From Bacteroidaceae bacterium (GTDB taxonomy: Bacteria; Bacteroidota; Bacteroidia; Bacteroidales; Bacteroidaceae), in assembly GCA_017522785.1 (NCBI GenBank), contig JAFWYF010000001.1, positions 124,001 to 188,000 on the forward strand: a DNA stretch of 64,000 bases. Direction: 5' to 3'. Positions within the stretch are counted from its first letter, which is position 1; each line of letters begins with the position of its first letter. Both the position numbers and the translations under genes were made by a program. Below the pieces are notes generated by a model. The model did not search any database, was not told the DNA's origin, and saw only the letters and a program-made list of their open reading frames with translations. Shown piece by piece: positions 5,092 through 25,300 of the stretch.

Positions 5092-5721
5092 TTATTTATC
5101 CATGTCCTCTGCTTGTGGACGTGGTTCCTTCTTAGCGAGTGTTACAATTTTATATACGTATTCTGTCATCCACTCCTCGGAATAACCTAACTTCTCTTTG
5201 TATTGGCGAACTGCATATACGGTTTTGAATGTAGCCTCGTCCTTCCAATTGTTCTTTGTCAATATGTCGTTAATGACTTTTTGAGTCATGCTGTAGAGCA
5301 ATTTCTTGAATACTCCCGGAACGCGGAATTTCCATTGCATAAGATTGCCTACGAGCATCATTAAATCGTTGTTGAATCCTTGGAATGCAAACAAATAGGG
5401 TTGTACGCTGTTCAAATTCTTGCAGTTCTTTTTTATTGATGCGTCAATCTCCTTAAAGAAGTTGTCATTTAGGCCATAGAGCTGTTCAATCATCTTTTTG
5501 CAACGGCTACGCTCGGCTACTCCCAACTTGTTGTTTTGTGTTGCAACCTTTAGAGTGCGTTTGAATGTAGCAAGGTCGGGTAACATTCCAAGGTTTGTTA
5601 TTCCTAAATTAGCGGCAAGTACCGATTGATAGTAAACGCGTATGAGGGTCATGAAATCCTCCATGCCACCAACTCTTTCGGTCTCTTTATTTTTCTTTTT
5701 GAAAAAATCGAATAATCCCAT
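5092..5721 (-). CDS. Conserved hypothetical protein next to yidC
   Basis: I do not recognise a family. The 209-residue protein begins with MGLFDFFKKKNKE, a short amphipathic basic start, then appears as an all-helical soluble domain rich in Lys, Leu and Asn, with no signal peptide or membrane helix. It lies 20 bases after yidC and 12 bases before the DUF2156 gene on the same strand, so it probably belongs to the same transcript. Nothing in the sequence points to a catalytic role. Confidence 0.7.
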   Translation of the reverse strand: MGLFDFFKKKNKETERVGGMEDFMTLIRVYYQSVLAANLGITNLGMLPDLATFKRTLKVATQNNKLGVAERSRCKKMIEQLYGLNDNFFKEIDASIKKNCKNLNSVQPYLFAFQGFNNDLMMLVGNLMQWKFRVPGVFKKLLYSMTQKVINDILTKNNWKDEATFKTVYAVRQYKEKLGYSEEWMTEYVYKIVTLAKKEPRPQAEDMDK

Positions 5722-5741
5722 TTCTTATATTTTAATTTTTG

Positions 5742-7670
5742 TTATTTCTTATTTCTTTTTTGTTGTTCTTCCAATATACGCTGTTGTTCCTGTTGGAGTG
5801 CCTCTAAACGTGCCATCATGCCACTGCGTTTAGCAGGGTTGTTTTTGTTTGCTTCGTAGAATGCCTCCATCTTTTGCAATAATACATCTTCCTTAATGGT
5901 TTGTCGCAAGTATATGAAGATGAATACGCTTATAAGTGTCGATAGGAAATAGTAGTAGTTGAGTCCCGACGAGTATTCGTTGAACATAAAGAAGAACATT
6001 ATAGGCATTATGTACATCATCCAACGCATAATCTTCATCTGTTGCTCCTGCTCGGGTGAGCCACCAACGTTTGGTTGCATCTTCGATGTGTAATATGTGT
6101 TTAGTATCTGTGTTACACAGAATAGTAAACAGAAGATGCTTATGTGATTTCCTATTGGCCAGATAGATGTGTTCCAACTTATCAATGCATCGTAAGAAGA
6201 GAGGTCGTCGGCCCACAAGAAACTCTGCTGGCGAAGTTCTATGGCATTTGGTACAAAGTTGAATAACGCAATGAATATTGGCATTTGAATGAGCATGGGC
6301 AGACATCCTCCCATGGGGCTTGCTCCATATTTAGAGTATAATGCCATAATCTCCTGTTGTTTTTTCATTGCATCCTCCTTTTTGGGGTATTTTGCATTTA
6401 TTGCATCAATGTGTGGTTTCAAAGCACGCATTTTAGCCGATGACAAATACGATTTATATGTGAAAGGATATACAACGACCTTCACAATCAATGTCAAAAG
6501 CAGTAGCACAATGCCCATGTTCAAACCCCAACCGCTGAGCCAATCGAATAGGTACATTATGAAGAAACGGTTAATCCAACGTACAATTGGCCAACCAAAA
6601 TATATCAATTTCTCGAGTTTGGGGTCTTTGTCATTCCCTTCCTCAAGATAACTGCTTGCCTCTACAAGGTCGCTGTATTTGTTGGGGCCAAAATAGAAAT
6701 GAATATCTGTACTCTCTTTTCCGCTGGGGTCTAAAGGTAATGTCATTTCGGCAGAACAGTTCTTTAGAAAGCCACGTCCTTCGTTTAATGTGTCGGATAC
6801 CAATGATACGTTGTCAAATGGAACAGCGGGAACCATTATGCAAGAGAAAAATTGGTTTTTCATTGCAATCCAATCTACCGGCTCCGAAATGTTTTCTTTG
6901 TCGTTTGATATTTCGCTCAGATAGTCTGTTCCGTCGTTTTCAAGTTTATATGTGATATTTGAATATCTCTGCTCAAATGTAAATCCTTTCTCTTGCTGAC
7001 GTATGAGTTGGTCCCAAGTGATGGCAATATCTCGTGTGGAACTTGGGAAAAAGTTCTGCATGTTGTTAGCATCAATCTCCAATTTTACTATGTAGCTGTC
7101 GGGGAGCAGTGTATAAGTGAAATCGATATACTTTTCGGCAGATGCAACAAGGCGCATTACAACTCTGTTGCTTGTTACATCAATGGGGGTAAAGTGGAAT
7201 TTGTCGGTGTTTATGTTCTCTTCTTTACCATCTATTGTGAAGTTGATGTTGTTGCGTACCTCATTTTTACGATGTCCATGTCCTACAGTTATATTGTCGT
7301 TGCTGTCGAACAAGGTAATAGGGTTGCCCTGTTGGTTGTTGTAGTCGGCAAGTGTAGCCGAGCATATACGTGCTCCTAATGTCGAAATGCTTACAGCAAC
7401 TTTTTCGTTTTTGAGTGTAATAAATTCTTCTACTCCATTGCGTGCATTAAAGAATAGGGCAGTGCTGTCCTGCTGCAATAATGCCTGCTCTTTTTCGTAC
7501 TTTTCAATAGCTTCTATTACGGCTTTTTCCTGCTCGTATTGAACTGCTGCGATAGAGTCTCTTGTACGTTGTTGTGCTGCAATCTGCTCTTGGTTTGGCT
7601 TGTTTATGTAGAAATAGCCAACAAAAACCAAAGCAATAAGCACAAATCCTGTTATTGTATTTTTATCCAT
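5742..7670 (-). CDS. yidC: Membrane protein insertase YidC
   Basis: YidC inserts and folds inner-membrane proteins, alone or with SecYEG. The 642-residue product has an N-terminal helix (MDKNTITGFVLIALVFVGYFYI), a large periplasmic domain of the Gram-negative type (about residues 60-340), and the C-terminal core with transmembrane segments including MGIVLLLLTLIVKVVVYPF and the GCLPMLIQMPIFIALF motif, then a basic tail. The frame extends 21 codons upstream to 7733, but promoter elements lie there and the N-terminus fits best with the ATG at 7668-7670. In many relatives pyrG is adjacent; here pyrG is about 31 kb away. Confidence 0.96.
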   Translation of the reverse strand: MDKNTITGFVLIALVFVGYFYINKPNQEQIAAQQRTRDSIAAVQYEQEKAVIEAIEKYEKEQALLQQDSTALFFNARNGVEEFITLKNEKVAVSISTLGARICSATLADYNNQQGNPITLFDSNDNITVGHGHRKNEVRNNINFTIDGKEENINTDKFHFTPIDVTSNRVVMRLVASAEKYIDFTYTLLPDSYIVKLEIDANNMQNFFPSSTRDIAITWDQLIRQQEKGFTFEQRYSNITYKLENDGTDYLSEISNDKENISEPVDWIAMKNQFFSCIMVPAVPFDNVSLVSDTLNEGRGFLKNCSAEMTLPLDPSGKESTDIHFYFGPNKYSDLVEASSYLEEGNDKDPKLEKLIYFGWPIVRWINRFFIMYLFDWLSGWGLNMGIVLLLLTLIVKVVVYPFTYKSYLSSAKMRALKPHIDAINAKYPKKEDAMKKQQEIMALYSKYGASPMGGCLPMLIQMPIFIALFNFVPNAIELRQQSFLWADDLSSYDALISWNTSIWPIGNHISIFCLLFCVTQILNTYYTSKMQPNVGGSPEQEQQMKIMRWMMYIMPIMFFFMFNEYSSGLNYYYFLSTLISVFIFIYLRQTIKEDVLLQKMEAFYEANKNNPAKRSGMMARLEALQQEQQRILEEQQKRNKK

Positions 7671-7907: not shown

Positions 7908-9209
7908 ATGAATTACAAAAGATTTGTCTCTTTAGTTGTGTTTGTATCGACATTGTTGTCTACAAATGCTCAAAGTAACTTAGATGCAGTTAAACAATAC
8001 CTTAACATGCGTTTAGACTCCATTGTGGCATCGTGGCAGGAGTGTAATGAAGACTCCATTGAGAGTGGTAGTCGCACAAACCCGACATATTATCGTATGC
8101 TCACCCCACCGGTGTTGTATGAATCGACTGTTAAACGTGGATTGCGCCAAGGCTTTGATATGCCATCTGCTACAGTTGGTGGTGAAATTGATATGGATAG
8201 CAAAAGAGAGGTCTTGATTGATAAACTACTTTTGGAATTATACAAAGAGAATCCATCTTTGGTTACACAAACCGAAGAACAAATGCGTAGTGTTGTGTCT
8301 TCAAAGGAGTTGGCTGCGTATGATAAGGCTCCTGATATAAAAGTCAATACACAAGCTCCTATTTTGGCATCTGAAGATGCAATATCGAGCCTCGAAACAG
8401 AATATCGTAAGCCTAACTATTGGCGTACATCGGGCTCTGTTTCATTCGATTTCACTCAAAACTATGTGTCGGGAAACTGGCATGCCGGTGGTGAAAACAA
8501 TAAGACATTGCTAACTATTTTAAAGTTGCATCTAAATTACGACGATAAGAATAAAATTAAGTTCCTAAATACTTTTGAAGCTCATTTGGGCTTTACAACA
8601 GTAAAATCGGATACACTTCATAGCGTAAAAACAAACAACGATATGTTGCGTTTGCAATCAAACTTGGGTTACAATGTTGCCAAAAACTTAGATGTTTCGT
8701 TGGATGTTAAGCTACAGACCCAGATGATGCCTAGTTACCCTTCTAATTCTCCCGATTTTGTTTCGAACTTCATGGCTCCCTTTGACGCATCATTCTCTCT
8801 CGGTTTGAACTACAATAGAAGCGGTAAGAATTGGAATGCAACACTTTTCTTTGCGCCTTTGTCGTCGTATAACTACAAATTCGTACGTTATGGCTATTTG
8901 GCATCTCGTTTTGGTATAAAAGAGGGACGTCAGCACAAAGAGGACTTCGGTACAAAGCTTGTTTTAAAACCCAATGTAAATCTGTCAAAGAATATAACAT
9001 GGAGTGCTCGCATGGAGTTCTATTCTACATATTCACGTACATTCTTTGAGTGGGAAAATACAATTAACATGCAAATAAATCGTTATCTAAAAGCATCGTT
9101 GTTGTTGCACACTCGTTTCGATGATAGCGCTCCCGGGCTCTACAGCGATTCATACGGCTATTGGCAGTTGAAAGAGTACATGACTTTGGGCATTTCTTAT
9201 CAGTGGTAA
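7908..9209 (+). CDS. DUF3078 outer-membrane beta-barrel protein
   Basis: The 433-residue protein has a signal peptide (about residues 1-21, ending before QSNLDAV) and a C-terminal half with the features of a beta barrel: alternating hydrophobic strands, the NYWRTSGSVSFDFTQNYVSGNWHAGG segment typical of DUF3078, and a final aromatic residue (ISYQW). Such proteins sit in the outer membrane of Bacteroidota; their cargo or function is unknown. The gene stands alone under its own promoter and is followed after about 50 bases by the antiporter. Confidence 0.82.
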   Translation: MNYKRFVSLVVFVSTLLSTNAQSNLDAVKQYLNMRLDSIVASWQECNEDSIESGSRTNPTYYRMLTPPVLYESTVKRGLRQGFDMPSATVGGEIDMDSKREVLIDKLLLELYKENPSLVTQTEEQMRSVVSSKELAAYDKAPDIKVNTQAPILASEDAISSLETEYRKPNYWRTSGSVSFDFTQNYVSGNWHAGGENNKTLLTILKLHLNYDDKNKIKFLNTFEAHLGFTTVKSDTLHSVKTNNDMLRLQSNLGYNVAKNLDVSLDVKLQTQMMPSYPSNSPDFVSNFMAPFDASFSLGLNYNRSGKNWNATLFFAPLSSYNYKFVRYGYLASRFGIKEGRQHKEDFGTKLVLKPNVNLSKNITWSARMEFYSTYSRTFFEWENTINMQINRYLKASLLLHTRFDDSAPGLYSDSYGYWQLKEYMTLGISYQW

Positions 9210-9258
9210 AAACGTGCAAACATACTAAATTGTTATAATAAAGATTTGAAATTGTGAG

Positions 9259-11361
9259 ATGATATATAGTACATTTTTAACTACATTGGAAAAGGGAAGT
9301 TCGTATCTTGGTTCTTTGTACGATTCAGTTACGCAGAGTTGGAATAGCATTTTCCCAATATCCGACCCTACATGGATTTTCTTTTGGGTGCTATGTATCA
9401 TTTTGTTTGCTCCTTTGTTATTTAACAAATTGCGTTTGCCACATATTATAGGCATGATTTTGGCCGGTCTTGTAATTGGCCCTAATGGCCTTAATGTTCT
9501 TGCACGTGATGACAGTTTTGAACTGTTTGGTAAGGTGGGTCTTTACTACATAATGTTTTTGGCCAGCCTCGAAATTAATTTACAAGATTTAAAACAGGCG
9601 CGTGGTGGTGCCATGCTAATTGGTCTTGCTGCTTTTGCTATACCAATTTCTCTGGGCATGTTTACAAACTTGGCTATTCTTGGCTATGGTCTTATAACAT
9701 CGGTGTTGTTGGCCAGTATGTATGCCTCGTATACGCTTATATCCTATCCAATTGTTGCACGTTATGGTTTGGCGCGTCTGAAATGTGTGAATTTTGTGGT
9801 GGGAGGAACTATTATTACCGACACGCTGACTCTCTTTGTCCTAGCTGTTGTTGGTGGTATGTTTAGCGGAGAAACCGATGGTTGGTTCTTTGTTCTGTTG
9901 TTGCTGAAACTGATAGTAATATCTCTTGTAATTATCTATCTCTATCCCCGCATAACGCGCTATTTCTTTCGTCGATATAACGATGGAATAATACAATATA
10001 TCTTTGTTATGGGTCTTTTGTTCCTTGCTGCGGGTATGATGGAACTCGTTGGTATGGAAGGCATATTGGGCGCTTTTATCACCGGTATGGTGCTTAACAG
10101 AATGATTCCACACACTTCGCCTCTAATGCGTCGTATCGATTTCGTTGGTAATGCAATATTTATTCCTTATTTCCTTATAGGTGTGGGTATGATGATAAAT
10201 ATTCGTGTACTATTTAATGGTGGTGGCTCGTTGTTGGTTGCGGTGCTAATGGTTCTTACTGCCTTAACCGGTAAATGGATTGCGTCGTGGCTCACACACA
10301 AGGTGTATAAAATGTCTTCCGATGAGCAAAGGCTTATGTTTGGTTTGAGTAGTTCGCAGGCTGCGGCAACTTTGGCTGCGGCATTTGTGGGACATGGTAT
10401 TATTCTTAGCGATGGTTCGCGTTTGTTGAACGACGATGTGTTGAATGGCACAATCCTGCTAATTCTTGTAACCTGTATAGTAAGTTCAATTGTAACAGAC
10501 AGAGCATCACGAAATTTGGCAGTATCGGGTGCTCTTCCCGACAAACCTGCAAATAAATCTAAAAAGACTTTGTTGGCACTGGCCAACCCCGATATGGTAG
10601 ACAAACTAATGGATTTGGCTTTGCTCCTGCGTAAAGAGAACTCAAAAATACCTCTTTCTGCGGTAACTGTTGTCCTCGACGAAGATGAAAAAATGATGAG
10701 CAGAGGTACTAAAGTTTTGGATACAGCAGCACATATAGCGGCATCGGTGAATGTTCCATTGCTGACAAAGGTTCGTTTGACAACTAACCTTTCTCATGGT
10801 ATTATACACGAGATGAAAGAGAATGATTATGGCGAATTGATAGTAGGATTCCATCAGAAAGAGACTGCAAACGACACATTTCTAGGAGGTGTGTTGCCAG
10901 AATTATTACGAGGTCTGTTTTGTCAGGTTGTTATGGCACGCATCTCTATCCCGCTTAGCACTGTACGCTGTATTCATGTAACATTCCCTGCAAAAGCGGA
11001 ATTTGAAGCCGGATTTTACCATTGGGTAGAGCAAACAGCACGCATGGCAACAGGGTTGGGATGCAGAATATTATATCATGGTCATCCCGATACAATGGCG
11101 TTGATAAAGAATTTTCTCGACGAATTTGGTATAAAGGGCTTGGCTGAATTCTTTGCAACCGATGGCGGAAACGACCTCAAACGATTGTCTAAACAGATAC
11201 ACGATGACCATTTGTTGGTTGTGGTAAGCGCACGTAAAGGCTCTATCTCGTTCCGTCCTTCACTCGACCACATTTTCACCCAATTGCAACGAGACTATCA
11301 GAACACAAGTGTGTTGCTGATATATCCCAATGGCTATTCGGTGAGCAGTGAGATGAATTAG
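9259..11361 (+). CDS. CPA2-family cation:proton antiporter with C-terminal USP-like domain
   Basis: This inner-membrane protein of 700 residues likely exchanges Na+ or K+ for protons. Roughly residues 30-415 form the NhaA/KefB-like membrane domain with about 12 helices, including LRLPHIIGMILAGLVIGPNG and the GMEGILGAFITGMVL segment. The remaining 280 residues are soluble and resemble a universal-stress-protein type domain pair (AVTVVLDEDEK, ELIVGFHQK, LLVVVSARKGSISF), as in other Bacteroidota antiporters. Its TAG stop overlaps the TAA of the convergent GH92 gene. Confidence 0.87.
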   Translation: MIYSTFLTTLEKGSSYLGSLYDSVTQSWNSIFPISDPTWIFFWVLCIILFAPLLFNKLRLPHIIGMILAGLVIGPNGLNVLARDDSFELFGKVGLYYIMFLASLEINLQDLKQARGGAMLIGLAAFAIPISLGMFTNLAILGYGLITSVLLASMYASYTLISYPIVARYGLARLKCVNFVVGGTIITDTLTLFVLAVVGGMFSGETDGWFFVLLLLKLIVISLVIIYLYPRITRYFFRRYNDGIIQYIFVMGLLFLAAGMMELVGMEGILGAFITGMVLNRMIPHTSPLMRRIDFVGNAIFIPYFLIGVGMMINIRVLFNGGGSLLVAVLMVLTALTGKWIASWLTHKVYKMSSDEQRLMFGLSSSQAAATLAAAFVGHGIILSDGSRLLNDDVLNGTILLILVTCIVSSIVTDRASRNLAVSGALPDKPANKSKKTLLALANPDMVDKLMDLALLLRKENSKIPLSAVTVVLDEDEKMMSRGTKVLDTAAHIAASVNVPLLTKVRLTTNLSHGIIHEMKENDYGELIVGFHQKETANDTFLGGVLPELLRGLFCQVVMARISIPLSTVRCIHVTFPAKAEFEAGFYHWVEQTARMATGLGCRILYHGHPDTMALIKNFLDEFGIKGLAEFFATDGGNDLKRLSKQIHDDHLLVVVSARKGSISFRPSLDHIFTQLQRDYQNTSVLLIYPNGYSVSSEMN

Positions 11362-19586: not shown

Positions 19587-22500
19587 ATGACAAAATTTCC
19601 ATTCGTTGTGCTTATTGTTCTATTATCAATACTCATGCAAATAGCATGTGTTGGAAATAGCAGTGGTGTAGAAAATTCTACGCTTGCCGACTCATTGTGT
19701 AGCGAACTACGTGAACTTCGTTACGAGAGTGCCGAAAAAGTAGAAAATGTTGCAAACAACATCCTAAAGATTTCAAATGCAAGTAATGAACATGTGGCTA
19801 TTGCATACAATGCTCTTGCATATTCGGCCTTTATGCGTATGGACTATTTTAAAGCAGATAGTCTATATAAAGAGGTCTTGTTACATGCGGAGTGCGAAGT
19901 AGAACGTTTTGTTGCCGATGTCGGAATGATGATGCTGTGCTACAGAACATCTGCGAACCGTGAATTTTTTGATTATCTGACAAGTGCACAAGGTAGAATT
20001 AAAAGAATAGAAGAAGAGTTTGAATTCTTGCCTTTAGACGAGAAACAACGCTTTATAAATGCACAAATAGAGAAGGAAATCGTTTCAATTTGTTATTTTG
20101 CTAACATAGGTATAGAGCAAGACATGAAAACTGCTCTGGAAAAATTAAAAGAGACAATTCCTATGTTGCACGATATGCCTTTGCGCATATACGCACGCAT
20201 GATATTGACTATGCAAACCGATATATCCCTTCTTCAACGTGCTGAATCTCTTTTTATGGTGTTGCAACGCTGTAACTCAGCAAATATGTTGTGGTTAAGG
20301 GCTAATTGTCGTTTACTACTGGCAATACTATTACGTGATGACAATGCACGTTCGTTAATTGTAAAAGAGATGCCCGAAAGAATTTATATTTCTACCGGGG
20401 ACTCTTTGCAACTCAAAGATATTCCACTAAATTTTGCTCTTGATGCTGTTGCCGATTTTGAATCTTACGGCGATAACTACATGGCTATAGAGGGGTTGGC
20501 CGTTGCTGCATCATGCAATACCCAAATAGGTGAATATGATAGCGCATTGGCTTTGCTGGATAAGGCAATTGGTTATATAAATAATTATTACTCTGTAACC
20601 GACTCGTTGCAGATGTTCTCTTTGCATAATGTCTATGATACAGAGATAGAACAATTTGATAACGAAGATGAGATAAATATTGCAGAGTGTCTTTTGAGTG
20701 TACGTCGAGAAGCAAGTTGTGCCTATGCAGGTCTTGGCGATAAATATCTATCTGATATAAACAGAAACAGTTATTTGGATTTGTTGAAAACTACTCGTCT
20801 GAATAAACAGATGGAGAGTCGTGCGATAGCCGCCGAGGAGAGTGCAAATCGCATGTATATATGGTTCTTAATTGCCATTATAGCTCTTGTAGCTGTTTCT
20901 GTCGGTATATATATGCTTAGTGCGGGATGGCGGAAACGCACTGCAAACCATACAGCACATATGAAGTCTCTGCTTCGATTGTGTCGTCATCTAATGACTG
21001 CTTTACCGCATGAACTCGAAGACAAAGAGTCGGTCTATCGTGCTGTAGAAAATATTCTTAATCGCGATATGGGCCATTTCTCGGGTAGTACACAGTTTAG
21101 AATATGTGATAAAGAATCTTTGCTACAAGATGCTTGTAATATTTTCCCGCTAGAGCGTGTAAGTAGTAATACCAATGAGTATCTTTTGGTGCTATGCAAC
21201 GAGGAACTATCGGCAGAGAAACGCTCTTTAATAGAACTTGCTCTTCCGTATGTGAGTGTTGCAATAGATGAAGGGCTTAGAATCTCCGAGATTGCAGATG
21301 AACAGACCGAAGCAGAGCAACAACGTGTTTCGTATAATTATTATCTTGCAGAACACAAACGTGAGAATATATTAAAACGTGTCTCTTTGTCTATCGTTAG
21401 TGGCATGCGTCCATACATGGATAGAATGTTGAATGAGCTGAGCCACCTATCTCGTTCATCCACATGTAGTGATATTGAGCGCCTGCGACTAGAATATATT
21501 GCAGAACTAACAGATAAACTCGACGATTACAATACGATATTGGAGCGTTGGATTAAAATGCGTCGAGGAGAATTAAGTCTGCACATAGAAAATTTTGTTC
21601 TTGCTGAACTGTTTGAAATTATTGCCAAAGGCGCACAAACATTTGAGTTGAAAGGGATAACACTCGATGTTAAAGATTCTTTTAATGTTGTAAAAGCCGA
21701 CAAAGCTCTAACGCTATTCATGATAAATACACTTGCCGATAATGCCGGAAAGTTTACATCACCGGGTGGTCGGGTAACCGTAGAAGCTCTTGAAGGAGAT
21801 GATTACGTGGAAGTCGCAGTTAGTGATACAGGGGTTGGCATAGCACAAGAAGATATCGACCGTATATTGAATGAAAAGGTATATGATGCCTCTCTAATTG
21901 GTCGTGAAAATAGTCTGGCAAAGAATAAAGGAGGTGGCTTCGGGCTTATGAACTGTAAAGGTATAATTGATAAATATAGAAAAACTGATGCTCTTTTTGG
22001 TGTATGCAGAATGGATATCACAAGCACACAGGGAAAAGGCAGTCGTTTCTCGTTCCGTTTGCCAAAAGGTGTTCTTAGAATATATTCTATATTGTTGTTG
22101 ATGTTTTTGCCATGCTCATTATTGGCTAATAACCATAATATAGATAATGTAGAGAACCTTGCAGATTCAGTATACCAGTGCAATGTCGATGGACGCTATT
22201 CCGATGCTTTGATTTATGCAAAAAACGCATTACACGAACTAAATAACTTTTATCTTGCAACAGTTGGAGCAAATGATACCTTGTGCTTTGAGCAGGGAGC
22301 ATTTGCTGAGATTAAATGGTGGCGCGATGCTCTCTTTTCCGATTCATTGAAAGAAGAGGTTTTTTACAACCTTCTCGATATACGTAACGAGGTTGCTGTG
22401 GCATCATTAGCTTTACAAAACTGGGCCTGCTATCGTTATAATAATGCGATATATGCTCAATTGTATCGTCTTGTGCACGAAGATAAAGGCATTGCTCTTC

Positions 22501-23825
22501 ATTATGAGAAAATGCAAAGTTTAGCCAATAACCGACATATTGCAGTTGTGCTATGCATAACCTTGCTTTTATTGTTGCTCATAGCATATGCGATGTTCTA
22601 TGTTCGACATGGTGTAGTTGAGCGAATGAATGGGCAATTGGTACAGCAGATGAACAGACGATTGTTGAAGTTGATTAGCGGTCCTAGAATTGACAACAGA
22701 GAACTAGCCCAGAGTGTTGCCACAGAGATGCTGTCGGGAATGAGTGAATTGCTACGAATAACAAATGTTTCTGTATTGCTAAAGAATACAAGTGAATCAG
22801 TGATAACTTCTGCAGTAGGTGTTGTAGGTGATGTTAATGAGTTATATCTTCTCCGAACATATGAGAATTGTAAACAAACTTCTTACAACGGTGGTTTGTT
22901 GCATCTCTTTCCTTTGGTTGCAGTATCGTCGGGTGAGCAGTGTGTGCTGGGTGCCATATCAATAGACACTGAACGCAATTTGACAGAGAATGAGCAGATG
23001 ACTGTTGAACTTATTATAGGCTATGTTGCTTCGGCAATATATCATTCTTCAATTCGTTTGGCCGGCAAATATCGCACACTGGACGAAATACAGGATGAGT
23101 TGGAACGTGTAAAAATGGAAGAAAATCGTTTGCATGTGCAGAATCTTGTTATGGATAACTGTCTATCTGTAATAAAACATGAGACAATATACTATCCGGG
23201 TCGTATTCATGAACTTGTCTGTCAATTGCGTAACAACAATCTCGATGAGTTGGTGTGGCGCGAGAAGATAACGGCAATGAAGGAGTTGATGGATTATTAT
23301 AATTCAATTTTTGGTGTGCTTGCTTCGTGTGCCATGAGACAGCTCGACGATACAGCGTTTAAAGTTTCCTCAATTCCATTAAATACACTATGGAAACATT
23401 TGCGGAATTTTGTCGTTAAGCGTGCTACAAAGAGTAATATAGATATTGAACTACAGTGTAAAGATACAACAGCCATAGTGTATGGCGATAAAGACCTTAT
23501 ATCTTTGCTGTTTGAATCGTTACTAAATGGTTTAATGGCTGAACACGTGCCGGGTTCTCTCATTTTACGTGCCGTAGAGGAAAAGGGAGTTGTAAGAGTT
23601 GAAATATTAGACAAACGTCGTCATGTGTCTAACGATGAACTTGCAGAACTATTTACTCCATCACGAAATAAACTTGTGGGAGGTGATGTTGTTGGCATGG
23701 AATTTCTTGTGGCAAAAGAGATTGTGCGTATGCACGAAGATGTAATGGGTTGGAGAGGTGGCAGAATGGAGGCTCGTGATTCGAATGATGGTGTGGTGTT
23801 GTATTTTACCTTGCCACGATTGTAA
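19587..23825 (+). CDS. Tandem two-module sensor histidine kinase-like protein (DUF5112/5113 type)
   Basis: The 1412-residue membrane protein contains two sensor-kinase-like modules. Module 1 has a signal-like helix (residues 4-21), a TPR-like helical sensor (about 30-410), a membrane helix (about 421-445), a dimerisation-like helix pair (about 590-650) and a HATPase domain with N-box (N714, D718, N719), G1 DTGVGI (from 747) and G2 GGGFGL (from 782). Module 2 has a membrane segment (about 831-847), a second periplasmic part, a helix (about 984-1010), a GAF-like region, a helix with a His-Glu pair (H1198) and a degenerate ATPase-like end. In module 1 the aligned phosphoacceptor position is G606. 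The response regulator follows after 28 bases. The frame is continuous, so this is one fused gene, not two. Confidence 0.85.
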   Translation: MTKFPFVVLIVLLSILMQIACVGNSSGVENSTLADSLCSELRELRYESAEKVENVANNILKISNASNEHVAIAYNALAYSAFMRMDYFKADSLYKEVLLHAECEVERFVADVGMMMLCYRTSANREFFDYLTSAQGRIKRIEEEFEFLPLDEKQRFINAQIEKEIVSICYFANIGIEQDMKTALEKLKETIPMLHDMPLRIYARMILTMQTDISLLQRAESLFMVLQRCNSANMLWLRANCRLLLAILLRDDNARSLIVKEMPERIYISTGDSLQLKDIPLNFALDAVADFESYGDNYMAIEGLAVAASCNTQIGEYDSALALLDKAIGYINNYYSVTDSLQMFSLHNVYDTEIEQFDNEDEINIAECLLSVRREASCAYAGLGDKYLSDINRNSYLDLLKTTRLNKQMESRAIAAEESANRMYIWFLIAIIALVAVSVGIYMLSAGWRKRTANHTAHMKSLLRLCRHLMTALPHELEDKESVYRAVENILNRDMGHFSGSTQFRICDKESLLQDACNIFPLERVSSNTNEYLLVLCNEELSAEKRSLIELALPYVSVAIDEGLRISEIADEQTEAEQQRVSYNYYLAEHKRENILKRVSLSIVSGMRPYMDRMLNELSHLSRSSTCSDIERLRLEYIAELTDKLDDYNTILERWIKMRRGELSLHIENFVLAELFEIIAKGAQTFELKGITLDVKDSFNVVKADKALTLFMINTLADNAGKFTSPGGRVTVEALEGDDYVEVAVSDTGVGIAQEDIDRILNEKVYDASLIGRENSLAKNKGGGFGLMNCKGIIDKYRKTDALFGVCRMDITSTQGKGSRFSFRLPKGVLRIYSILLLMFLPCSLLANNHNIDNVENLADSVYQCNVDGRYSDALIYAKNALHELNNFYLATVGANDTLCFEQGAFAEIKWWRDALFSDSLKEEVFYNLLDIRNEVAVASLALQNWACYRYNNAIYAQLYRLVHEDKGIALHYEKMQSLANNRHIAVVLCITLLLLLLIAYAMFYVRHGVVERMNGQLVQQMNRRLLKLISGPRIDNRELAQSVATEMLSGMSELLRITNVSVLLKNTSESVITSAVGVVGDVNELYLLRTYENCKQTSYNGGLLHLFPLVAVSSGEQCVLGAISIDTERNLTENEQMTVELIIGYVASAIYHSSIRLAGKYRTLDEIQDELERVKMEENRLHVQNLVMDNCLSVIKHETIYYPGRIHELVCQLRNNNLDELVWREKITAMKELMDYYNSIFGVLASCAMRQLDDTAFKVSSIPLNTLWKHLRNFVVKRATKSNIDIELQCKDTTAIVYGDKDLISLLFESLLNGLMAEHVPGSLILRAVEEKGVVRVEILDKRRHVSNDELAELFTPSRNKLVGGDVVGMEFLVAKEIVRMHEDVMGWRGGRMEARDSNDGVVLYFTLPRL

Positions 23826-23853: not shown

Positions 23854-24576
23854 ATGAATAATAAGTTTACAGTAATAATAGTTGAAGATGCAAAATTGGA
23901 ATTGAAAGGTACAACAGAAATTTTTCGTACTGAAATTCCCGAAGCCGACATAATAGGTGTGGCGATGAGTGAACCCGAAGTCTTCCCGTTGCTAGAAAAG
24001 CAGACACCGGATTTGCTATTGCTCGACTTGGGATTAGGTGGCTCTACAACTGTCGGAGTTGAAATTTGTGCCAAAGTAAAAGAGTCCTATCCGCAAGTTA
24101 AGGTGCTGATATTTACAGGTGAGTTGCTAAACGAAGAACTATGGGTCGATGTGCTAAATGCCGGAGCCGACGGTATTGTGCTGAAAACAGGCGAACTGCT
24201 TACAAAATATGAAATTCATAATGTGATGTCGGGACGTCGATTTGTATTTAATCAGCCCATATTGGAAAAGATTGTTGCACGTTTCTGCGATTCAGTGATG
24301 CAAGATGCTACTAGAAGAAAATCGTTGATAGAGTATGAAATTGACCGTTACGATGAGTGCTTCCTAAGACATCTGGCTCTTGGATATACCAAAGAAATGA
24401 TTGCAAATTTGCGTACAATGCCGTTTGGCGTAAAGTCGTTGGAGAAGCGACAGAGCGACCTCGTTTCGCGTCTTTTCCCCGAAAATGAACAGCGTGGAAT
24501 TAATGTTACACGTTTGGTAGTAAGAGCAATAGAATTACATATTTTAGATATAAATAATCTCGAAGCAGATGAATAA
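23854..24576 (+). CDS. Response regulator with receiver and helix-turn-helix-like domain
   Basis: The 240-residue protein has an N-terminal receiver domain with the acidic pair E11/D12, the phosphoacceptor D58 (LLLLDLGLG), T88 and K111, all the residues expected of an active receiver. The C-terminal part (about 160-235) is helical and contains a LuxR-like region (LRHLALGYTKEMIANLRTM) that is diverged from the usual NarL pattern. It directly follows the tandem sensor and is almost certainly its partner. It overlaps the next gene by eight bases. Confidence 0.88.
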   Translation: MNNKFTVIIVEDAKLELKGTTEIFRTEIPEADIIGVAMSEPEVFPLLEKQTPDLLLLDLGLGGSTTVGVEICAKVKESYPQVKVLIFTGELLNEELWVDVLNAGADGIVLKTGELLTKYEIHNVMSGRRFVFNQPILEKIVARFCDSVMQDATRRKSLIEYEIDRYDECFLRHLALGYTKEMIANLRTMPFGVKSLEKRQSDLVSRLFPENEQRGINVTRLVVRAIELHILDINNLEADE

Positions 24577-25300
24577 AAGAACTGCATATTATCTTCCCGC
24601 ATTGGCTTATATAGTGTTGCTTTTGTTGGTATGGCTGTTGTCGTGGATTATTGGCGTTGTAAATATTGTAGATGATGGCAATTTGATGAATAGTCTAATG
24701 ACAAGTGAAGGCTTACGGTGGGCTCTACGTAGTTCTGAGCAGAGCCTGAACAATGCACCGTGGGGTACTGCTATGTTTATACTTGTGATATTTGGCTTGC
24801 TCGATTGCTCGGGGTTGTTGCGACTTTTTGGCGATATAATATCTTTTCGTACTATATCAGTGAACCGTCGTCGTGCGGCATATATGGCTCTATTGGCTCT
24901 ATTGCTATATGTTTGCCTTTTGTGTCTTAGTGTTCTCTCTTCATGGCGATTGCTGATGGGTGTTACCGACGATTTCTCATCATCGCCCATTATGCATGGA
25001 TGGATGTTGTTACTTTTCATGGCAACTCTCTTTGTTTCTGTGATATATGGCTATGTATACGGTAACTTCCGTTCAACAACCGATGTAATTTGTGGAGTAG
25101 GGTGTAGTGTCGCTAAATTTATTCCGGCATTATTGGCAATGCTGCCTGCAACAGCGGTTTTGTCGTGTTTGCAATATATGGGTTTACCTGCTTTTTGGGG
25201 GTTAAGTGATGTGCACATGGAATATGCAGGAATACTCTTTTATTTGTTGCCATTTCTTTTTGTTGCATTCTTGAATCTGAGAACTGATACTATTAAATAA
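24569..25300 (+). CDS. Polytopic membrane protein of the sensor locus
   Basis: The 243-residue product has about six hydrophobic segments and no soluble domain. The segment NAPWGTAMFILVIFGLLDCSGLL recalls the core of AbgT/YfcC-type transporters, which are about twice as long, so it could be a half-length relative; this is a weak resemblance. It overlaps the response regulator by eight bases, so it is translated with the two-component pair and may be a transporter or signal-sensing partner. Confidence 0.72.
   Translation: MNKRTAYYLPALAYIVLLLLVWLLSWIIGVVNIVDDGNLMNSLMTSEGLRWALRSSEQSLNNAPWGTAMFILVIFGLLDCSGLLRLFGDIISFRTISVNRRRAAYMALLALLLYVCLLCLSVLSSWRLLMGVTDDFSSSPIMHGWMLLLFMATLFVSVIYGYVYGNFRSTTDVICGVGCSVAKFIPALLAMLPATAVLSCLQYMGLPAFWGLSDVHMEYAGILFYLLPFLFVAFLNLRTDTIK

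Follow-up and report, generated by a model that had tools for sequence, protein, structure and literature searches.

This report concerns a gene at 19587..23825 on the forward (+) strand of a 64,000-nucleotide stretch of a Bacteroidaceae genome (GenBank assembly GCA_017522785.1, contig JAFWYF010000001.1, positions 124,001 to 188,000), which we refer to as the window. The gene is a single open frame for a tandem sensor kinase of 1412 amino acids (aa), unbroken as the initial annotation had it, and its product is a candidate for a split histidine kinase, in which one half of the chain would catalyze phosphorylation and the other half would receive the phosphate. All features given below are on the + strand.

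Layout of the gene

The product can be divided into two modules. Module 1 begins with a signal sequence containing Cys21 (aa 1-21, 19587..19649), possibly a lipoprotein signal, and a loose Cys lipobox-like pattern occurs within the first 70 aa in 149 of the 178 homologues described below. It is followed by a DUF5112 domain (aa 34-291, 19686..20459; PF17139, E 4.2e-37), which is probably periplasmic, and by the first of two DUF5113 matches (aa 294-445, 20466..20921; PF17140, G000:C17:144466-144921, 76.1 bits), which extends across the transmembrane (TM) helix TM2 (aa 423-441, 20853..20909). The remaining domains of module 1 are DHp1, a helical hairpin with S605 and G606 and no conserved acceptor (aa 596-668, 21372..21590), and CA1, an intact ATP-binding domain (aa 690-828, 21654..22070).

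Module 2 is introduced by a signal-peptide-like internal segment with a possible signal peptidase site after A847 (aa 829-847, 22071..22127). Next come the second DUF5113 (aa 854-1007 in Pfam, 22146..22607; PF17140, E 1.2e-50 for the whole protein, this being the best stretch), TM4 (aa 985-1003, 22539..22595), the hairpin DHp2, helical in the model and carrying the invariant K1197-H1198-E1199 (aa 1187-1262, 23145..23372; His1198 codon at 23178..23180), and CA2, a degenerate ATPase-like domain (aa 1285-1410, 23439..23816). Kyte–Doolittle (KD) hydropathy places hydrophobic segments at aa 4-22, 423-441, 829-847, and 985-1003, with 19-residue values of 2.6 for TM2 and 2.96 for TM4.

Pfam finds DUF5112, two DUF5113 and one HATPase_c domain (best stretch 712-827) in the 1412-aa protein, and no HisKA at E values up to 1. 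DUF5112 and both DUF5113 exceed the curated cut-off in one frame, which places the protein in the tandem sensor family. The linkers between the TM and DHp segments are labeled GAF-like here from predicted secondary structure, Pfam giving no GAF match. A search of the organism's own genome with the 1412-aa protein matched nothing else there.

Homologues and their distribution

For comparison, 182 loci were fetched (175 from our numbered sample genomes and seven from named contigs), hand-picked for genus spread and from what the match lists showed. Removal of four duplicate sequences left 178 homologues, all from the Bacteroidaceae, or 179 rows with the query; one of these, L080, ends at a contig edge and lacks columns 605-606. 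Three genomes whose modules are spread over two contigs or lie at the ends of contigs (G513, G553, and G581) are outside the set. Both modules share a single open frame in the 178 homologues, L080 being cut by the contig end.

DUF5113 is present in 241 of 299 sampled Bacteroidaceae genomes, mostly as two matches. In a sample of the order (295 genomes, five of them in the Bacteroidaceae), the only genome outside the family with DUF5113 over the cut-off was G109; it was rejected as a source of a kinase relative, the protein being TPR-like by eye and not a kinase. DUF5932, the output domain of the neighboring regulator, exceeds its cut-off outside the Bacteroidaceae only in G091 and G245 of the order sample, and a class sample of 296 genomes gave no match above the cut-off in another family, with two weaker matches present.

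Complementary motifs in the two modules

The initial annotation had placed a segment with Gly606 (LSIVSGMRPYMDRML), an N-box at about 714-722, DTGVGI from 747, and GGGFGL from 782 in module 1, and in module 2 a segment in which His1198 is followed by Glu1199 (LSVIKHETIYYPGRI) together with replaced ATP-binding boxes. All of these were found where it had put them, and the alignment shows what has become of them in the family. In module 1, N719, D747, G749, G751, G784, and G786 are invariant over the 179 rows, and the [DE]NAxK pattern is kept in 175 of 178. In module 2, intact ATP-binding boxes are rare or absent (NAx[KRH] in 4/178, DxGxG in 8/178, and GxG[FIL]G in 0/178).

The acceptor side is the mirror image. 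K1197, H1198, E1199, and P1204 are invariant in 179/179 rows, and no histidine of the protein other than H1198 is invariant (178 rows, L080 excluded). Column 606 of module 1, over the same number of rows, holds G (118), S (25), A (16), E (7), D (6), N (5), or T (1), and a histidine in none of the 178 homologues. Mean pairwise identity over 120 rows is 0.59 for CA1 versus 0.31 for CA2, and 0.66 for the core of the first DHp2 helix versus 0.41 for DHp1; by this measure CA1 and the histidine-bearing helix are the conserved parts.

Neither module combines a conserved acceptor histidine with an intact CA domain, as a conventional histidine kinase does. The division of motifs is family-wide, held throughout the 178 homologues and far beyond chance, and catalytic and acceptor functions appear, from the sequence, to lie on complementary units, which is one mark of a split kinase.

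Two further features of module 2 should be kept in mind. CA2 keeps a conserved helix at aa 1381-1385 (RMHED in the window), with His1383 in 105 of 120 rows; this helix, in a domain whose nucleotide motifs are lost, suggests a new binding role. The H-E/D-x-x-N/T phosphatase motif, in the form given in the excerpted text of PMC3591291, is absent, position H+4 (1202) being Y in 62, W in 3, S in 1, and F in 1 of 67 rows. Since this usual motif is missing after the acceptor histidine, dephosphorylation may work otherwise.

An internal duplication and the acceptor register

When the profiles of modules 1 and 2 are compared, they match colinearly across 501 columns (probability 99.9, E 1.8e-35), a span that takes in DUF5113, the membrane helix, the linker, and DHp and reaches the end of CA. 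On this colinear match, the protein is best described as two copies of one membrane sensor-kinase module, preceded by an added DUF5112.

The same alignment bears on which residue of module 1 occupies the acceptor place. The initial annotation had paired Gly606 with His1198 without gaps, and this pairing stands as one of two registers; the profile alignment introduces a one-residue gap and sets His1198 against Ser605. The second register also agrees with a single-module relative (LSIFRHDMSPYI), in which the histidine four residues before the proline corresponds to module 1 column 605. The acceptor place of module 1 is column 605 or 606, with some variation, 605 being the better aligned of the two.

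This relative comes from G091 and G245, which belong to another Bacteroidales family and in which a DUF5932-like regulator adjoins a 710-aa kinase (8730-10862 in locus L238 and 5257-7389 in locus L239). Inspected by eye, the kinase shows a single signal sequence and a single membrane helix; its DHp carries CLSIFRHDMSPYI, and its CA boxes are intact. Against the module-2 profile, the two copies score 64 and 62 bits, the best of the non-family sequences, with kinases from 25 other loci at 54 bits or less; against the module-1 profile they are mid-ranking, at 78-79 bits versus up to 100 for other non-family kinases. A single-module kinase of this sort (H-D, intact CA) is a plausible model of the un-duplicated form, rather than a proven ancestor.

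Predicted structure and possible pairing of the DHp hairpins

AlphaFold2 models place both DHp segments in long, hairpin-forming helices, each followed by a CA-type fold. For aa 420-1412 of the window protein the mean confidence (pLDDT) is 88.8 and the predicted template modeling score (pTM) is 0.68; for a 545-aa part of the short homologue L151 the values are 86.9 and 0.69. In structure comparison, each of CA1 and CA2 finds matches among the solved CA domains of kinases (for CA1 these include that of DivL), and module 2 is thus predicted to retain an ATPase-like CA fold despite its lost nucleotide motifs. Rows for ShkA (6qrj) and a LOV-kinase (8a7f_A) ran across both modules; they gave only end residues and were not used.

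In a direct-coupling analysis (DCA) of 178 rows, both hairpins come out in their own registers (position sums 1252 and 2437; z 6.7 and 5.6). The register expected if both hairpins form one four-helix bundle, derived from the turn positions in the model, has a sum of 1844.5, and here the couplings between the first helix of DHp1 and the second of DHp2 reach z 2.9 (p 0.003), and those of the reverse pairing (first helix of DHp2 with the second of DHp1) z 2.4 (p 0.008); controls in the wrong orientation were negative. Couplings over all domains are noisy, with CA1-CA2 pairs among the most frequent at the top. Two variants were set aside: a shuffle of module 2 within clades, in which 0 of 60 runs reach the observed bands, is not relied on since the shuffle lowers all between-module couplings, and a wider band centered on 1848 scores better with a center picked after seeing the profile.

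Linker lengths offer another comparison. Judged by length alone, both linkers are short in 16 homologues from few lineages, 15 of which have TM-to-DHp lengths that differ by no more than 6 residues between the modules. Together, the structure prediction and the weak coevolution suggest that DHp1 and DHp2 pair. Two of the homologues with short linkers in both modules are compact (L145, 997 aa; L151, 969 aa, in which the second periplasmic domain is mostly missing) and are suited to structure work.

The adjacent response regulator

The next gene downstream (23854..24576) encodes a response regulator with a receiver and a DUF5932 domain (PF19355, E 8.4e-55). Of 124 loci examined, 121 have such a regulator downstream in the same orientation; the misses are L138, which meets a contig end, and L099 and L191, which have room for the gene and no such gene in it. 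A further locus, L300 (outside the 124), is also without a regulator in the available stretch. The receiver acids and D58 are invariant in 118/118 distinct regulators.

Overlapping the end of the regulator gene is a gene for a 243-aa membrane protein (24569-25300) with a partial AbgT-transporter match (29.5 bits versus a cut-off of 27), which recurs in 78 of the 124 homologous loci. The upstream ribosomal genes S6, S18, and L9 were rejected as a functional clue, L9 being present in only 8 of 50 loci with at least 1500 nucleotides upstream.

A probable split kinase in one gene, and rival readings

The initial annotation had suggested that the catalytic part of the first module may phosphorylate the histidine of the second, within one chain or between two copies. 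We consider this likely, and extend it to the adjacent gene: with a probability of about 0.74, the gene encodes a split histidine kinase in which CA1 phosphorylates H1198, which in turn feeds D58 of the regulator. The transfer to H1198 might take place inside a single chain, from one copy to another, or between processed fragments. To the earlier picture we add the internal duplication, the 605/606 register, the retained CA2 fold, and the signal-peptide-like junction.

An ancient duplication or fusion of a whole module would have given rise to the two halves. Module 1 (signal, DUF5112/5113 sensor, TM2, GAF-like linker, DHp1, CA1) would provide ATP binding and catalysis and have no acceptor, and module 2 (signal-like segment, DUF5113, TM4, GAF-like linker, DHp2, CA2) would provide the acceptor His1198 and have no ATP site. 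DHp1 and DHp2 would most likely join in one heterotypic helical bundle and, because they share this proposed bundle, CA1 could phosphorylate His1198 of its partner module; His1198 would then hand the phosphate to D58 of the adjacent regulator. It is from the sequence anatomy, its conservation throughout the family, and the gene order that we infer the phosphotransfer, the heterotypic pairing, and the partnership with this regulator.

Several observations weigh against the proposal. A histidine stands at column 605 in 13 of 178 homologues, and one of these, L197 (genome G382), alone of the 178 has an acid directly after it (H605-D606), with N719 kept. Module 1 of L197 could be a complete kinase, and a minority of homologues may have kept or regained a histidine in a module that otherwise lacks a conserved acceptor. 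(In L197, His also replaces Asn at 714.) His616 is found in 26 of 120 rows, with Glu directly after it in 20. One could read these residues as signs that module 1 is itself a complete autokinase, acting through His605, His616, or a residue other than histidine; but module 1 has no conserved histidine, and the window protein has Ser605, Gly606, and Asn616, so that we give this reading very little credence.

The evidence for pairing is also open to objection. The pTM speaks only indirectly to the DHp bundle, and the coupling band was set after the top pairs had already been seen. When columns with more than 5% gaps are left out, p rises to 0.12 and 0.15 in the narrow coupling tests, and with mutual information to 0.25 and 0.13; the parallel helix-1 test stays at p 0.005-0.007 under gap-column removal or mutual information, and in the same mutual-information run the hairpin of module 2 itself reaches only p 0.08. 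Linker length classes differ between the modules in 27 of 178 homologues, so linker lengths need not match. CA1 ends few residues before the next hydrophobic segment and is thereby tied near the membrane, which makes its reach to a raised DHp2 questionable. Lastly, at least three homologues of one genus, g199, have no adjacent regulator (L099, L191, and L300), although L194 of the same genus has one.

Conventional DHp domains pair homotypically, and the same division of labor might be achieved with homotypic pairing if each module paired with its counterpart in a second chain and CA1 reached His1198 of a neighboring bundle within a larger assembly, as CheA4 acts on CheA3. The weakness of the coevolution signal for the heterotypic alternative favors such an arrangement, whereas the between-module couplings in the bundle register, the matched linker lengths in 15 of the 16 short homologues, and the pTM of 0.68-0.69 for models with both modules in one chain speak for a heterotypic bundle; we regard homotypic pairing as unlikely, while taking it more seriously than a module 1 autokinase or a scaffold. 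A different possibility is that module 1 is an ATP-binding regulator and that a separate kinase phosphorylates His1198, the tandem protein serving as a phosphotransfer scaffold. Pseudo-histidine kinases such as DivL do exist (PMC9430884, in excerpt), and the match of CA1 to the DivL CA domain fits that role, but the six catalytic-box residues of CA1 are invariant over 179 rows and the chain has no invariant histidine besides His1198, and we think a scaffold distinctly improbable. The split kinase, with CA1 acting on His1198, is the reading carried forward below.

A possible signal peptide inside the frame

According to the initial annotation, each module has its own membrane segments. Four hydrophobic segments are indeed present, but the third (aa 829-847) looks more like a signal peptide than an anchor. 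A count of membrane segments at a KD cut-off of 1.6 split or missed this segment in many homologues, which led to a signal-peptide test. Over the 179 rows, its maximum 19-residue hydropathy averages 1.70, versus 2.92 for TM2 and 2.79 for TM4, and its uncharged run averages 15.4 residues, versus 20.4 and 22.1; the lipoprotein-type signals at the N terminus of module 1 also average 1.70 (93 rows with a recognized lipobox). A Lys or Arg lies within seven residues after FRLP in 178/179 rows.

The ends of the segment point the same way. A lipobox pattern is seen there in 42/179 rows (those of L080, L211, and L296 being false by eye), compared with 7 for TM4 and 1 for TM2; a strict AxA pattern in 102 (TM4 14, TM2 22); and a loose one in 177 (TM4 50, TM2 67). 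Examples of cleavage-site-like ends are VLAGC (L086), LLTGC (L245), and PTSYA before Q (L145). An internal translation start at V829 was considered and rejected, codons 829-835 having no fixed ATG, GTG, or TTG.

There is a strong lead, then, that aa 829-847 are a signal peptide kept inside the frame, at which a signal peptidase may cut. If the segment is cleaved at its end (after A847 in the window) by signal peptidase I, or by signal peptidase II in other clades, the gene would yield catalytic and acceptor subunits at 1:1, forming an obligate heterodimeric kinase with two periplasmic sensor domains. We put this forward tentatively, as somewhat less probable than its rival, in which the chain is left uncut, with the segment acting as a signal anchor and each of the four hydrophobic segments crossing the membrane. 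The shared frame of the modules in every one of the 178 homologues is in keeping with selection for a single chain, and the site in the window (SLLA before NN) is no strong consensus; against an intact protein are the signal-like hydrophobicity and the lipobox- or AxA-like ends, found family-wide and well above the TM2 and TM4 controls. On balance we lean slightly toward the whole protein, which is a rival to cutting and not to the split kinase.

Comparison with known systems

The window protein is a member of the DUF5112/DUF5113 proteins of the Bacteroidaceae, whose domains are unnamed, and no paper naming DUF5112, DUF5113, or DUF5932 was found in the open-licence literature searched. A search of titles and abstract openings in that literature for tandem, dual, or pseudo histidine kinases and internal signal peptides likewise showed no such system among the matches listed.

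By mechanism, the nearest known system is CheA3-CheA4 of Rhodobacter sphaeroides, a split kinase of which neither partner autophosphorylates alone, one having a kinase domain and no acceptor and the other an acceptor and no kinase domain (PMC3591291, in excerpt). CheA3 and CheA4 are products of two genes with the chemotaxis CheA architecture, whereas the window protein comes from one gene and has a duplicated membrane sensor, a DHp-type histidine, and a degenerate CA domain beside that histidine. The same paper also mentions EnvZ domains split onto separate chains, and counts 1556 of 42417 HisKA proteins in SMART as having no HATPase (PMC3591291), on which count split kinases are an already known kind. 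Hik36 and Hik43 of Synechocystis are alike in that a pair of kinase-like proteins has been proposed to serve a single response regulator jointly; they are separate proteins with CheA-type domains, and the evidence is from two-hybrid and mutant work (PMC7656254, in excerpt). A duplicated membrane sensor in a single gene is found in neither CheA3-CheA4 nor Hik36-Hik43.

Three other comparisons are instructive. In EnvZ, His-less and kinase-dead subunits complement each other, with trans-phosphorylation between the unequal subunits of a DHp dimer; that complementation is laboratory-made, whereas the asymmetry of the window protein was fixed in evolution within one gene. DivL is kinase-like, has Tyr in place of the acceptor His, retains a CA domain, and is separate from the kinase that it regulates, whereas the partner module of the window protein lies in the same frame. 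For cleavage, the parallel is FbcH, the cytochrome b/c1 precursor of Bradyrhizobium, where one gene gives two membrane proteins by cutting at an internal signal peptide; FbcH is respiratory and its cleavage is known, whereas the window protein belongs to signaling and its cleavage is only predicted.

Significance

In a normal histidine kinase the subunits form a symmetric homodimer, so that sensing, catalysis, and phosphate acceptance are hard to assign to one subunit or the other. The tandem kinase would be an asymmetric enzyme fixed by evolution in a widespread family, and each of its halves could be mutated on its own within the one gene. Direct tests would become possible of whether phosphorylation runs in cis or in trans, of what a retained pseudo-ATPase does, and of how two periplasmic inputs are integrated. 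Should the internal signal be cut, the gene would be a bacterial signaling polyprotein, and a membrane two-component sensor would come from one frame and be matured by the protein-export machinery.

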